This document shows, piece by piece, positions 13,469 through 21,386 of a DNA stretch of 24,486 nt. The notes under the pieces were generated by a model. That model was given only the letters and a program-made list of their open reading frames with translations. It was not told the DNA's origin and did no database searches. Numbering within the stretch: the first letter of the stretch is position 1; each line of letters begins with the position of its first letter. The DNA is from a virus. The DNA is taken from the IMG/VR virus record IMGVR_UViG_3300026478_000026, positions 1 to 24,486 of that record, one strand, 5' to 3'. Position numbers and translations under genes: made by a program.

Positions 13469-14341
13469 TTACAAATCGCCGGTATTTGTAGAAGGAAATA
13501 ATCTAGTGTTTCCAGGCCATATAATTCTTACTGCACCGCCACCACCGGGGCTTCCCGAATATCCCGGCCCAGAGGTTCCTCTTGCGCCACCGCCACCGCC
13601 GCCATATGACGATCCAGAACCGCCACTACCTGCGCCACCGCTAGAAGAAAAATTGCCTGCTGGCGCTCCAGTGCCGTTAGTGCCCTGCCCAAGAATGCCT
13701 ACGCCACCACCAGCGGCTGCACCAATCGGGACGCTACCAGAACCACCGCCGCCACCACCACCGCCAGAACCATCAGTGCCCGCACCACCTTGAACTGCGC
13801 CTACACCACCATTTCCAGAATAACCCGCCGCCCCGCCGCCACCGCCGCCGTTGTCATAACCATTACCGCTGCCGCCAAGCCCACCAGTACCACCAAGCAC
13901 ACCTGTACCACTGTAGGTTCCGCCCGGATACGAACCCCCTACGTTTCCTACAGGGCCACCACTGCCGCCTGTAGCAACACAAACAGCGCCGTTAAACGAA
14001 GAATTTCCGCCTTTTGCGCCTGCAGTTGGCGCTCCAGCCGTACCCGTTCCTCCAGCACCGCCCGATCCAACAACAACCGTATACGACGCGCCGGGGGTTA
14101 CTGGGTAATTGTTAAGGTAAGCAAGACCGCCACCTGAGCCGCCATAACCACCATAACTAACACCATCAGCGCCACCACCGCCTCCACCGCCCCCAACGCA
14201 CACTATGGAGACAGCCGTAACCCCAACAGGGCATACCCATGTATACGTTCCCGGAGTTGTATAAGCTTGTTGTCCTGTTGCGCCAGAACAAAACCCAAAA
14301 GCTCTAGCGGATGCCGCCCCTAAAGTTATGGCTGTTGGCAT
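13469..14341 (-). CDS. Glycine-rich virion protein, possible fibre tip or adhesin
   Basis: A 290-residue protein. A short N-terminal region is followed by YTTPGTYTWVCPVGVTAVSI (about residues 26-45), the usual entry strand of phage glycine-rich domains. There follow about 220 residues dominated by runs of Gly with Ser, Ala and Tyr, and a closing GGGGAVRIIWPG strand. Domains of this build, as in phage adhesins such as S16 gp38, pack as polyglycine-II helices and expose variable loops that contact the host. It shares the scheme with both halves of the 571-residue protein at 17503-19218, so it is probably a third related copy. The ATG at 14341 has AAAGG upstream, and the preceding gene's TAA is fused to that site. 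No receptor can be deduced. Confidence 0.8.
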   Translation of the reverse strand: MPTAITLGAASARAFGFCSGATGQQAYTTPGTYTWVCPVGVTAVSIVCVGGGGGGGGADGVSYGGYGGSGGGLAYLNNYPVTPGASYTVVVGSGGAGGTGTAGAPTAGAKGGNSSFNGAVCVATGGSGGPVGNVGGSYPGGTYSGTGVLGGTGGLGGSGNGYDNGGGGGGAAGYSGNGGVGAVQGGAGTDGSGGGGGGGGSGSVPIGAAAGGGVGILGQGTNGTGAPAGNFSSSGGAGSGGSGSSYGGGGGGARGTSGPGYSGSPGGGGAVRIIWPGNTRLFPSTNTGDL

Positions 14342-15566: not shown

Positions 15567-15872
15567 TTAAGAGTAGTAAGTGATGTTTAACTTAGCGCCA
15601 GCAGATTGCTCAATGAACTTAATTTGATTGATGTCGCCGTCATATTGCAAAGTAACACCTGCTGCTAAAGGCATACCTACAGTTGCTGTAGGTGCTACAC
15701 CATCATCCCGCCAACGAACAGCCTGCCCTTCGGGGGTGATAATAGCAATCCTAGGCGAACCCGCCAAGCCTGCGATGTCTTTTTGGGGTACGGTTAGCGC
15801 TGTGGCAGAACTTAAACTGGTTATCTGCTGGTAACCAAGTACCGAGGTAATTGCCTTAAGATTGATTGCCAT
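15567..15872 (-). CDS. Small conserved phage beta protein
   Basis: A 101-residue protein. The features GYQQITSLSSATALTVPQ (about residues 13-30), EGQAVRWRDDGVAPTATVG and a closing FIEQSAGAKLNITYYS belong to a small family I recognise from many phage structural regions; its function has not been settled to my knowledge. It reads as a compact beta barrel. The frame can be opened one codon earlier with TTG, but the ATG at 15872 is the proper start, with a perfect AAGGAG seven bases upstream. That ATG shares a base with the stop of the repeat protein (TGATG), so the two are translationally coupled and may function together. Confidence 0.78.
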   Translation of the reverse strand: MAINLKAITSVLGYQQITSLSSATALTVPQKDIAGLAGSPRIAIITPEGQAVRWRDDGVAPTATVGMPLAAGVTLQYDGDINQIKFIEQSAGAKLNITYYS

Positions 15873-16531
15873 CAAAATCTCCTTCGTTCAGTAAACGATC
15901 TTAACCTAATAACTAACTGTTCTGCCCCATCTAGCGTACCAAATTGATCTATGGCTGTCGCCATTTCTGCAATAACACCTTGCAGTGTTTGCGGTATAGA
16001 TACTTGGTCGGCTGCCGTCAACAACTCTAACACCACACTTTGAAGATCCATTAGTGTAGCAAGTTGATCGGAACTTGTTGCAAGTTCTGAAATTGCTGCT
16101 TGATATGCTTGAGCAGCAGAAAAATCATCAAAAACAGCCGCAAACTCACTGATGTTACCAAACTGATCTTGACCTTGGTTAGTTTGGTCTGTTCCTGTAG
16201 CGGTTTCATTAACGCTACTGCTTCCATCAACAGAAACGGATATAGCATCCGAGCCTGTAGCAACTTCAGCAACGGAAGCAACTAATGTAAAGGTTGTAGC
16301 TGTAGTGTCTGTGGCAGAAGCTGATTCAGCAATTAAAGCCTCTACAGCTTTTTCTGCATCTACTATGTCTGTGCCGGTTGCTGTTTCAATAACGGCTGAA
16401 TTGATCGTTAGGTTTGCGCTGGTAGTGTCAGTACCGGTGGCTGTTTCGGCTACTTCGCGTGTGTATGTGTTGGCACCCGATACACTGATCGTTGAGAACG
16501 GCGCAGTTGAAAATGGATCAAAACCGAACAC
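15872..16531 (-). CDS. Virion-region protein built of nine 20-residue repeats
   Basis: A 219-residue acidic protein. A 28-residue N-terminal segment precedes nine repeats of exactly 20 residues, and a short basic tail (ends TERRRF) follows. Each unit has Glu at position 1, usually Ala-Thr-Gly-Thr at 3-6 and an invariant Asp at position 7: Glu at residues 29, 49, 69, 89, 109, 129, 149, 169 and 189, Asp at 35, 55, 75, 95, 115, 135, 155, 175 and 195. The first five units are Thr/Ser/Val-rich, the last four Leu/Gln-rich. The start is GTG at 16531 with AAGG upstream; an ATG two bases earlier is in another frame. Similar short repeats occur in fibre-like phage proteins, but I know no function. Confidence 0.78.
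   Translation of the reverse strand: MFGFDPFSTAPFSTISVSGANTYTREVAETATGTDTTSANLTINSAVIETATGTDIVDAEKAVEALIAESASATDTTATTFTLVASVAEVATGSDAISVSVDGSSSVNETATGTDQTNQGQDQFGNISEFAAVFDDFSAAQAYQAAISELATSSDQLATLMDLQSVVLELLTAADQVSIPQTLQGVIAEMATAIDQFGTLDGAEQLVIRLRSFTERRRF
15908..16447 (-). repeat. Nine tandem 60-base coding repeats
   Basis: These 540 bases encode nine uninterrupted 20-residue units with no insertion or deletion between them. The repeat is strict at the protein level (Glu-1 and Asp-7 present in all nine) but well diverged in DNA, so it is an old, selected array. Units 1-5 are closer to one another (ATGTD-type core) than to units 6-9 (AAVFD, ATSSD, LTAAD, ATAID cores), which suggests two expansion phases or two functional halves. 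Confidence 0.85.
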
Positions 16532-16535
16532 ATTT

Positions 16536-16904
16536 TTACCTTGTTATTTCGATCCAGTTAGTCGTATCTTCATCCCACGAGTACATTTTACCGTCAGTTG
16601 GCATAGGAACCGGAGCCTCCCAAAGGCAAGAACCAGCGTTCAATAACCAACTTGCAAAAGGTTGTTGCGGTATAAAAGCGTCCCGTACTGGATCGTAGGT
16701 GTAACCAATGCCTGCATAGTTCTTCCTAAACGGTGTCCCGTTAGGATGCTGACCGCCTTGGGTGTTGTAGCTTGTACGCTTGCAAGGTTGTCCTCTTATC
16801 TCAGCGTAGCGTACTTCCCAATCAATACCTTCCTCGCCTTCGTCTTTGCCGACAATGACTTCGGTAACGATGTTATTTGCGTCTAAAAAAGCGTAGTGAG
16901 CCAT
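16536..16904 (-). CDS. Conserved phage protein of unknown function (122 residues)
   Basis: A 122-residue soluble protein. MAHYAFLDANNIVTEVIVGKD-type opening, an IRGQPCKRTSYNT segment (about residues 36-48), RKNYAGIGYTYDPVRDAFIP (about 60-79) and WEAPVPMPTDGKMYSWDED identify a small family found in structural regions of cyanophages, pelagiphages and related aquatic phages. Several aromatic residues and YTYD/WDED turns suggest a compact beta fold. No catalytic site is evident. The start overlaps the oxygenase stop (TAATG) and a strong GGAGG ribosome-binding site precedes it within the oxygenase gene. The pairing with an oxygenase gene may mean a shared function, but this is inference. Confidence 0.78.
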   Translation of the reverse strand: MAHYAFLDANNIVTEVIVGKDEGEEGIDWEVRYAEIRGQPCKRTSYNTQGGQHPNGTPFRKNYAGIGYTYDPVRDAFIPQQPFASWLLNAGSCLWEAPVPMPTDGKMYSWDEDTTNWIEITR

Positions 16905-17506
16905 TATGCCTCCAGCCGTAATCCAGTTAAATCAACTTCTTCCCCAATCATTCCAACTGGGAAGGTGTTAAACGATAGAGAAATTCTTGTTTCCTCACCC
17001 TGCACTTGCGGAACCATATGTTGCGCTGACGAAGGAAACAGAATTAGCTTGCCTGTTGTAGCTTCAAACCACCAAGACTCAGAGTTGTACTGATTCCACT
17101 CTAGCGGAGGGAATTTGATCTGTTGATACCCGTCACGGTAGAAGTAAATCCTGTCATCAGGATTGGTCTGAACATAAAACACACCTGAAACATAACTATT
17201 CGGATGTGCATGTTTGTGATGGAACTGCCCTGGCTCCGAGTAATTGCACCAGCTTTGCGTGACTCTCAGACTTACATCATGCTTAGGGTTTGCTGTTGCC
17301 TTAAAGTATTCAGATACGCAATCTTCAATCCATGAGCGTAACCCAGTCATAACCGGATCACGAAGCACAAAGTTATTGGTTGAGGTTGTATTACCCATGT
17401 TAGGACGGGTTTCTAACTCACGGACAAAGAACAACTCCTCATCCGTAAGTTCCCTTCCTAACTCAAAGAATCCTACAGGTGTAGGAAATAAATGGTGCAT
17501 GTTCAT
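16904..17506 (-). CDS. Putative 2-oxoglutarate/Fe(II)-dependent oxygenase
   Basis: A 200-residue protein with the layout of the short 2OG-Fe(II) oxygenases common in aquatic phages. It opens HLFPTPVGFFE. The metal-binding region is FHHKHAHPNSYVSGVFYV (residues 95-112, with H99 and H101 the likely site). FPSSAQHMVPQ (158-168) supplies the distal His163. R174 in ETRISLSFN would hold the 2-oxoglutarate carboxylate. The family normally hydroxylates a protein, nucleotide or small molecule; the substrate here cannot be read from sequence. The start is the ATG at 17506, which overlaps the stop of the glycine-rich gene (ATGA); a TTG two codons earlier is less likely, and an ATG at 17500 is possible. 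Its position among virion genes is notable. Confidence 0.85.
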   Translation of the reverse strand: MNMHHLFPTPVGFFELGRELTDEELFFVRELETRPNMGNTTSTNNFVLRDPVMTGLRSWIEDCVSEYFKATANPKHDVSLRVTQSWCNYSEPGQFHHKHAHPNSYVSGVFYVQTNPDDRIYFYRDGYQQIKFPPLEWNQYNSESWWFEATTGKLILFPSSAQHMVPQVQGEETRISLSFNTFPVGMIGEEVDLTGLRLEA

Positions 17507-19218
17507 GCCCAACTCACATTGCCTGTTCCGGCTGTAAAGGTTGTTATTTTGTAGCTACCAGAAGTAGATGTCGTGTAAGTCAATCCACCACTTGGGTTAG
17601 AGATTGTGAGGGATGATGGGTATTTGAGGATGACGACACCTGAGCCGCCAGCCGCACCGTTTGCCCCAGTATTTGCGCCGCCGCCACCACCACCGCCTTT
17701 ATTGGCAGTTCCAGCAGTCGCAGATGTAGAAGGTGAAATAGTTCCGCTATCACCACCGCCTCCATTACCACCGGAACCTTTTGTAGTAGAACCGGCCCCA
17801 CCGCCACCACCGGCGTAATAAAGAGAATCAATCGTTGCTTGAACTCCAACACCTCCGTTACCTCCAGTAGCTCCGGTATTTGATCCTTCGCTACCAGCAG
17901 CACCAGCTCCACCACCACCACTTCCGTATCGGTCAGCAGGAGGTTGAGTTACTGGCGCACCTGCGTTGCCTTGCCCAGAAGTGCCAGCTCCACCAAGTCT
18001 CCAGTTGGGAGCATAACTTGATGATGCGCCGCCACCAGAACCACCAGCACTACCAGCAGAATATGTAGCTCCAACATTATTGGAACCACCACCACCGCCT
18101 CCGGTGGTGCTAACAGAAGAAAATACAGAAGATGAACCATTGGAACCTGCCGACGATCCGCTTGAAGAACCTGCGCCACCACCACCGACAGTTACAGTGT
18201 AATTTGTTGAAACTGCAAATCCAGTTACAGTTCCCTGTTTCAAACCACCAGCACCTCCCCCACCACCGTAATAACCAGCTCCGCCACCGCCACCGCCAGC
18301 AACAACTAAATAGTCAACGCTGAACGCAAGGCCAAACTGCACATTACCCGTACCTGCTGTTACCTGCGTAATGGCATAACCACCAGAAAGGCTTGTACTG
18401 TAAGTAAGACCACCACCAGGATTGGAAATAGAGTAAGCGTCTGAGTATTTCAGGATGACAATGCCGGAGCCGCCTGCATAGCCATTTTGGACAACAGGAC
18501 TTGCTCCACCCAAACCACCACCACCCCCACCTCCGCCAGTGTTAGTAGTGCCAGCCGTGCCGGCAACAGATGGTGTTCTTGCTCCAACCGCGCCACTGCC
18601 ACCTCCTCCAGAACCACCCGTGCTTTGCACTGCGGTACCTGGGTTATCCCCACAGCCACCGCCACCACCACCAGCGTAATACGTAGCCGTTCCTGTAATT
18701 GATGATTGCAAACCTATACCGCCATTGCCCCCAGAAACAGAGTTTGATGATTTCCCTGCGCCACCCGCTGCACCAGCACCGCCACCACCACCTGGGGAAT
18801 AATAAGGCGCACCAGTTCCAGCACCGCCAGCATTACCTTGCCCAGACGGACTTGCAGCACCTCCAGCATTAGGCCATGAACTACCGCCCCCAGACCCCCC
18901 AGAGTTACCAGTAGTCCCTGCATAAGGAGCGCCACCACCGCCACCCGTTGAAGTTATGCTGCTAAAAACAGAATTGGAGCCGTTAGTACCTGCTCCACTT
19001 GTTCCGCCTGCGCCACCACCACCGACTGTTACTGTTAAGTTTGTTGTTAACGATACAGCGGGATCGGTTCCAGTTCTATAACCGCCTGCGCCACCACCGC
19101 CTGCTGCATCGCGGCCACCACCACCCCCACCAGCAACAACAAGGTACTCAACAGCGATAGACGATGGGGCGCTAACAGCATACGCCGCTGCAATCATTGC
19201 ACTTAATGCGCCAGCCAT
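17503..19218 (-). CDS. Double glycine-rich virion protein, possible receptor-binding adhesin
   Basis: A 571-residue protein made of two homologous halves. A short hydrophobic N terminus (ALSAMIAAAYAVSA) is followed by copy 1 (about residues 22-297) and copy 2 (300-571). Each opens with E/DYLVVAGGGGGG, passes through NxTVTVGGGGAG and VFSS, then long Gly runs with SGQGNAGG and YYAGGGGG. Each ends GGSGIVILKYxxxxxISNP, GGLTY and FTAGTGNV-type strands. Such domains form polyglycine-helix sandwiches at phage fibre tips and carry variable loops. Two copies in one chain, plus a third in the 290-residue protein, suggest duplication for broader or stronger attachment. The ATG at 19218 has AGGAG upstream. 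Its stop overlaps the oxygenase start. The fold is likely; the adhesin role is inferred. Confidence 0.83.
   Translation of the reverse strand: MAGALSAMIAAAYAVSAPSSIAVEYLVVAGGGGGGRDAAGGGGAGGYRTGTDPAVSLTTNLTVTVGGGGAGGTSGAGTNGSNSVFSSITSTGGGGGAPYAGTTGNSGGSGGGSSWPNAGGAASPSGQGNAGGAGTGAPYYSPGGGGGAGAAGGAGKSSNSVSGGNGGIGLQSSITGTATYYAGGGGGGCGDNPGTAVQSTGGSGGGGSGAVGARTPSVAGTAGTTNTGGGGGGGGLGGASPVVQNGYAGGSGIVILKYSDAYSISNPGGGLTYSTSLSGGYAITQVTAGTGNVQFGLAFSVDYLVVAGGGGGGAGYYGGGGGAGGLKQGTVTGFAVSTNYTVTVGGGGAGSSSGSSAGSNGSSSVFSSVSTTGGGGGGSNNVGATYSAGSAGGSGGGASSSYAPNWRLGGAGTSGQGNAGAPVTQPPADRYGSGGGGAGAAGSEGSNTGATGGNGGVGVQATIDSLYYAGGGGGAGSTTKGSGGNGGGGDSGTISPSTSATAGTANKGGGGGGGANTGANGAAGGSGVVILKYPSSLTISNPSGGLTYTTSTSGSYKITTFTAGTGNVSWA
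17506..18321 (-). repeat. Glycine-rich domain, copy 2
   Basis: Codes for residues 300-571 of the 571-residue protein, homologous to copy 1 along the full length: same start (DYLVVAGGGGGG), same internal markers and same LTYTTSTSGSYKI, FTAGTGNV end. The loops between markers differ in length and sequence, as expected for surface-exposed segments. Confidence 0.82.
18328..19155 (-). repeat. Glycine-rich domain, copy 1
   Basis: Codes for residues 22-297 of the 571-residue protein, ending LTYSTSLSGGYAITQ, VTAGTGNV. It is paralogous to copy 2 with the same order of markers. The high G content of the sense strand produces long proline-coding shadows on the plus strand, which are not genes. Confidence 0.82.
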
Positions 19219-20822: not shown

Positions 20823-21386
20823 TCATGCAGCCAGGCTAAAAGTGTAAGTTACTTGCAGTGTGTCGCCGTTAACAACCGAACGGTCACCACCCGTAAAATC
20901 AGATGCCGAGAACAATGTGCCTGAAGTACCAGAAGCAGCGCTTGCTAAAAATGCCCCACCAACAGTTGCAGTGCTTGTAATACTGTATGAGGCTTTGCTT
21001 GCTGAATTAGTTACAACCGAAGGATTGGCTGTAGTTGCAGCAGCAAAAGTTGCTGCGGGTCTATTTCCTGTGTACGGGTTAATTTCAGTCCATCCAGCAT
21101 GAGACGCTAATGTATCTGAAGCAGCAGGTGTGTTAGATGCTCCAGCACCATATAAACCGATATACCAAGATGTAATGCGAGCCGTAGCCCCGTCAAGCGC
21201 TGTACCTGCCATGTATTGAAGACCAACGTTTACAACAAGATTTTTAGATTCAGCAGTCCATTTGAGTTTGCCGTCTTTGTCATAACACTCAAACGAAAAT
21301 TTACCCATTGCACGAGCGCCTTCAGATGAAGAAGGGCGGGCTATCAAACCGCTGGCAGCGGAGTCTTTGGCTTTAGCTTGTTCCAT
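20823..21386 (-). CDS. Conserved phage structural-region protein (187 residues)
   Basis: A 187-residue protein. From residue 27 it carries MGKFSFECYDKDGKLKWTAE, then NLVVNVGLQYMAGTALDG and ITSWYIGLYG. These are features of a family widely seen in phage structural regions, usually of unnamed function. The rest is Ala/Thr/Ser-rich beta structure ending LQVTYTFSLAA. The start chosen is the ATG at 21386 because TAAGGA precedes it and is fused to the previous stop. An internal ATG at 21308 begins exactly where family similarity seems to start and has a weaker GAAGG, so the first 26 residues may be an extension. It could be a head-tail or fibre-base protein; no motif decides. Confidence 0.77.
   Translation of the reverse strand: MEQAKAKDSAASGLIARPSSSEGARAMGKFSFECYDKDGKLKWTAESKNLVVNVGLQYMAGTALDGATARITSWYIGLYGAGASNTPAASDTLASHAGWTEINPYTGNRPAATFAAATTANPSVVTNSASKASYSITSTATVGGAFLASAASGTSGTLFSASDFTGGDRSVVNGDTLQVTYTFSLAA

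Follow-up and report, generated by a model that had tools for sequence, protein, structure and literature searches.

What kind of structure does a virus build from a protein that places the same two acidic residues at every twentieth position? The stretch of DNA analyzed here, which we call the window, comprises positions 1 to 24,486 of IMG/VR virus record IMGVR_UViG_3300026478_000026. Its minus strand encodes a 219-residue protein that opens with an N-terminal module of 28 residues, continues with nine 20-residue units (residues 29-208) and ends in an 11-residue tail. The gene has the following parts.

15872..16531, minus strand: coding sequence of the 219-aa repeat protein, with a GTG start, AAGG about 7 bases upstream, and a TGA stop
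16448..16531, minus strand: N-terminal module VFGFDPFSTAPFSxIS (residues 1-28), almost unchanged among relatives
15908..16447, minus strand: array of nine 20-residue units, unit k running down 60 bases from 16447-60(k-1)
16208..16447, minus strand: units 1-4, faster-evolving, their number varying among relatives
15908..16207, minus strand: units 5-9, slow-evolving and ungapped in relatives with the same C-terminus
15875..15907, minus strand: C-terminal tail RLRSFTERRRF, 11 residues, replaced in other relatives by the W-repeat module LWELIDDSQxANW

The TGA of the repeat gene shares the sequence ATGA with the ATG of the next gene, an overlap as in operon-like arrangements.

The original prediction had described nine exact repeats at 15908-16447 with invariant Glu-1 and Asp-7. 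Coordinates, unit number and acidic positions were all correct: Glu stands at residue 29+20n and Asp at 35+20n (n=0..8) in each of the nine units, an in-register run of 9, compared with at most 2 in 20,000 shuffles of the protein. At a lag of 20 residues, the protein matched itself at 0.26 of positions, whereas 5000 shuffles averaged 0.086 and reached 0.171 at most. The word "exact" holds for the spacing and for these two residues, but not for the sequence itself, which varies from unit to unit. The DNA has diverged as had been described, the units being only 32-58% identical, and a search for direct repeats of at least 15 bases was negative. Three gene pairs gave dN/dS values of 0.12-0.18; the closest pair, the window gene and that of locus L003, gave 0.36 on the few changes that separate them. 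The repeat gene is under purifying selection.

Is this regularity peculiar to one gene? Scans for a pattern of three E.A...D units in register each returned at least 120 stretches in viral contigs, and the matches listed provided 229 non-redundant ORFs from 220 viral loci. These ORFs carried a median of 10 motifs and a maximum of 45. Of the neighboring motif spacings that fell between 15 and 25 residues, 889 of 914 were exactly 20, which supports the constraint on spacing that had been proposed from a single gene. Matches in cellular genomes were mostly unrelated low-complexity repeats, and a few loci from metagenome-assembled genomes (MAGs) or isolates look real (L088, L115, L170, L105 and L121).

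Residue preferences were counted over 1973 units of relatives, each with an intact unit on either side and itself unconditioned. The consensus was E-[TS]-A-T-[GA]-[TS]-D-x-[VI]-S-[AS]-x-x-x-[FLY]-x-x-x-[VI]-[SA]. Position 1 was acidic in 99.6% of units (E 98.5%, D 1%) and position 7 in 98.6% (D 94%, E 5%). Lys and Arg together averaged 0.29 per unit and net charge was -2.4 per unit; the acids are therefore left without basic side-chain partners. Hydrophobic residues occupied positions 9, 15 and 19 in 67, 82 and 88% of units, and small residues occupied positions 3, 5, 11 and 17 (position 5 was Ala in 36%), all of them, like E1 and D7, at odd-numbered positions. Overall, the units are rich in Ala, Ser and Thr.

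Relatives of the window protein are encoded in 36 IMG/VR loci, and here the number of units could be compared directly, a check that had been suggested with the original prediction. Proteins sharing the window C-terminus are 219, 239, 259 or 279 residues long, corresponding to 9, 10, 11 or 12 units, and none has an insertion or deletion inside a unit; another relative is 371 aa. Copy number thus differs by whole units in related phages. The extra units map to the N-terminal part and units 5-9 align free of gaps; between the window and locus L004 dN was 0.24 in units 1-4 and 0.05 in units 5-9. The original prediction suggested two functional halves in the array. Units 1-4 and 5-9 do differ, but two functions are unproven; because the additional units are N-terminal and dN differs between the parts, the array is better read, from these alignments, as a faster-evolving front of variable unit number followed by a slow-evolving back. 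In longer relatives the array is interrupted after unit 3 by a Gly-rich domain of about 270 residues, and the C-terminus is a different, Trp-rich one.

A match to a characterized family would have been the simplest route to function. As had been anticipated, no Pfam, NCBIfam or PHROGs model covered the array of the window protein. Among 87 members, matches to these libraries were scattered and weak (for PHROGs and NCBIfam, in 1-3 of 87), and we read them as effects of composition. Neither the protein nor a profile retrieved a credible relative from the PDB sequences, the weak matches being repeats of other period. A tblastn search of cultured phages with array segments of P0001, L191 and L204 returned nothing, perhaps masked by the low-complexity filter, and the motif strings were absent from the openly accessible papers searched. 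Specific candidates were also rejected. RTX calcium-binding repeats (GGxGxDxUx) had no Pfam match in the 87 members at E<=0.01, and the array consensus ETATGTDxV lacks GG; the curli repeat PF07012 (Curlin_rpt) likewise matched none of the 87.

Structure prediction, which had been named as a check on the repeat, gave a regular all-beta array at moderate confidence. With an alignment of 86 register-matched sequences, AlphaFold2 (AF2) built two beta strands per unit in the window protein, of about 6 and 9 residues, separated by turns of 2-3. Mean pLDDT was 68.5 and pTM 0.63, with pLDDT of 74-79 over units 1-5; across the five models mean pLDDT ranged from 45.7 to 68.5. The 19-unit member L191 gave the same two-strand pattern (pLDDT about 77 in the first units, pTM 0.42). 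A VIA-align search with the window model placed the calcium-bound beta-helix 3p4g, the RIV region of the Marinomonas primoryensis antifreeze/adhesin (MpAFP), first, with Z 17.9 and rmsd 2.5 over 196 residues, the next rows standing at 14.8. With the L191 model, 3p4g was second (Z 18.9, rmsd 3.2, 248 residues); CsgA (8c50) was first at Z 19.7, but with an rmsd of 8.8. Foldseek found no PDB match below E 0.49, and its matches to viral models, described as "curlin associated", were at E 0.035 or weaker. The Z scores of 17.9 and 18.9 against 3p4g would fit a two-sheet parallel beta-helix, and must be read with the moderate confidence of the models, the register-matched alignment behind the window model and a known bias in mind: given random 20-residue repeats, AF2 readily returns confident beta-solenoids whose interior holds stacks of Asp/Glu, and the calcium antifreeze fold is singled out as a true exception (PMC11795689).

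Covariation was also considered as evidence of stacking. Instead of neighbor-specific coupling between adjacent units, we found same-position coupling array-wide, which we therefore do not count as support for stacking. A weak neighbor signal appeared at position 15 only (z 3.4 among 18 positions). Direct couplings at positions 1 and 7 were artefacts of how segments were selected for this calculation and are unusable as stacking support.

The MpAFP RIV repeat is the most instructive comparison. Its tandem beta-helix coils of 19-21 residues, with the consensus xGTGNDxuxuGGxuxGxux (PMC3492233), resemble the 20-residue units, and both share a turn of a small residue followed by T-G-x-D, seen in the array as xATGTDxVxA. 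However, the array has a strict period of 20, carries a near-invariant second acid at E1, lacks the second, GG turn, often has Ala at position 5 and is set in a phage appendage cassette; a profile search of PDB sequences misses 3p4g. CsgA repeats (8c50; PF07012) likewise form two strands in each unit, about 22 residues long, but the array is without their Gln/Asn ladder. By the features compared, the array is not a member of the RTX, curli or MpAFP families. Repeat stalks in phage fibers are a known kind of structure; judged by its sequence, this array is absent from the family libraries searched.

The original prediction had suggested that a regular ladder of carboxylates might bind calcium or form a rod. 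The regular all-beta models and the high ranks of 3p4g speak for this, while AF2 is biased towards such folds and covariation does not confirm stacking; rod formation and calcium binding are plausible. We modestly favor a beta-solenoid as the fold of the array. The nine units would then form a stiff all-beta rod with one turn per unit; the whole number of units would set its length, which could be altered one coil at a time. Hydrophobic or small residues occupy odd positions (V19, A3, G/A5, V9, A11, F15), so E1 and D7 would fall on the same inward face, flanking the A-T-G-T turn. Because almost no Lys or Arg is present to neutralize the acids, the two stacked carboxylate rows would most likely coordinate divalent cations, in the manner of beta-helices that bind calcium. 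Given a solenoid, we consider such a cation ladder somewhat more probable than not.

Fixed-length repeats free of insertions and deletions, encoded in an appendage cassette, would also suit an obligate trimeric fiber shaft, akin to the adenovirus fiber triple beta-spiral or other fibrous phage shafts. The chains would wind on one axis with the hydrophobic residues between them, and E1 and D7 would point outward or pair across chains. Predictions made on a monomer are blind to such a trimer. Against it, a single chain already suffices for a regular repeat in the models, and E1 and D7 have the parity of the hydrophobic positions; we regard a trimeric shaft as rather unlikely.

It is improbable that the array is an acidic, low-complexity and largely disordered spacer, its solenoid an AF2 artefact and its period kept by whole-unit duplication only. 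The Ala/Ser/Thr-rich composition, the AF2 bias (PMC11795689) and the missing neighbor-specific covariation fit this account, but slippage alone leaves two fixed residues unexplained, and a disordered chain agrees poorly with a 20-residue spacing that is strict despite sequence divergence, with near-invariant E1 and D7, with hydrophobic residues alternating at 9, 15 and 19, and with dN/dS well below 1.

In the window, the neighbors of the repeat gene are portal, tailspike, Gly-rich, scaffold and coat genes. Genes of the window that recur with arrays elsewhere include the following.

20823..21386, minus strand: phrog_8123 homologue, found with arrays more often than any other partner gene (blastp match in 135/220 loci)
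16536..16904, minus strand: phrog_7759 homologue, directly upstream of the repeat gene, in the same position in 12 other loci

The window portal had a blastp match in only 1 of the 220 array loci; compared with the 135 for the phrog_8123 homologue, this indicates a cassette common to phages with different head genes. Within six genes of the array and on the same strand, an adaptor of the SU10-type family was present in 90 of 163 loci (mostly at -3), phrog_644 in 92 (mostly at -2) and phrog_8123 in 95 (mostly at -1); a 216-residue protein followed the array in 79 of the 163. The repeat gene thus sits in a virion connector/appendage module. Capsid decoration by a head fiber, in place of a tail role, would accord with the position of the window gene between portal and scaffold/coat genes, but is very improbable given that most other loci place the array after the adaptor and phrog_8123 genes and before tail-fiber-like genes, and that Gly-rich neighbors in the window match tail-associated PHROGs.

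The ends of the array proteins vary. Among 154 array ORFs, the N-terminal module GxGxWGxxxWG was found in 72 and GFxxFSxxPF, which the window module VFGFDPFSTAPFSxIS resembles, in 25; an LWExIDDxQ module was present in 69. A modular build of this kind, with repeat arrays and varied end modules, is typical of phage appendage proteins. We consider a role in a phage appendage very probable. The array protein would be the stalk of that appendage, with the N-terminal module (FGFDPFS..PFS) probably anchoring it or marking it for assembly. The full proposal, a structural protein of a tail-fiber/appendage cassette that forms an all-beta rod with cation-holding rows of carboxylates, has in our estimate about an even chance of being right. 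Within it, the repeat, its fixed spacing, the pattern of charges, the changes in length by whole units and the setting in the cassette are observed, while a place in the virion, the solenoid fold, the inward face of E1 and D7, the binding of cations and a role as ruler are inferred. More tentative, and in our judgement possible rather than probable, is its extension to a widely shared and previously undescribed fiber module: a predicted cation-stapled beta-solenoid with one Glu and one Asp per 20-residue coil in an internal metal ladder, whose reach would be tuned by gain and loss of whole coils in phages that are otherwise unrelated.

Repeat arrays in phage fibers govern the reach and stiffness of the receptor-binding part. 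The array described here is common in environmental phage contigs, occurs in phages with unrelated head genes and follows a simple rule of two acids per 20 residues, with length changing by whole units. Should it bind calcium, an appendage of many uncultured phages would be under the direct control of divalent ions, and protein design would gain a new beta-rod of adjustable length.

Cultured F116-like Pseudomonas phages offer a testable system, since they carry a degenerate form of the repeat, [ED]xAxx[ST]D (H66_0057; F116 region p55-p56). H66_0057-type proteins are homologous to the Acinetobacter L121 protein, which has 20-residue E...D units, and F116 has a phrog_8123 relative upstream. In these proteins, unlike the array, spacing is loose, Glu-1 is often Asp and the C-terminal domain is another one; they are annotated as hypothetical. 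As to presence in virions, a point against the proposal is that H66_0057, a diverged cultured relative, is not marked as detected although H66_0054 and H66_0060 are.

Haloarchaeal viruses PhiCh1 and PhiH1 encode acidic, short-repeat tail fiber proteins in an invertible segment (PMC6210493). BLAST with the L191 array matched PhiCh1 gp34 (L589:6737-8107) at E 7e-9. However, gp34 has a unit of about 10 residues, SQTAMDAVSx, with no E1...D7 scheme of 20 residues, and the match is probably compositional. The PhiCh1 repeat is half the array period, which may reflect convergence.

Other observations concern the surroundings of the arrays. The 20823-21386 protein, a phrog_8123/5417 homologue, is the most constant array partner in unrelated phages. 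A 2OG-Fe(II) oxygenase gene (16904-17512, minus strand) lies two genes upstream of the window array, and in 14 of the 163 loci a relative lies close to the array; its product could modify fiber residues. Gly_rich_2 proteins are encoded nearby at 17503-19218 (two copies) and 13469-14341, both on the minus strand.

A C-terminal Trp module, LW[EN]xI[DN]DxQxxNWxxI, in units of about 11 residues, occurs in L191:5855-7240 and about 69 other array ORFs, the pattern scan giving a lower bound on its matches. It is mostly in register with the 20-residue array: in at least 51 of 68 ORFs, the W-repeat C-terminus begins 13+20n residues past the final motif. Five loci (L203, L206, L215, L246 and L281) have two separate array-bearing ORFs each. 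In a Sterolibacterium MAG (L089, L114 and L176), ORFs of about 1300-1965 aa contain runs of 11-13 diverged E...D units and may encode prophage or host surface proteins.
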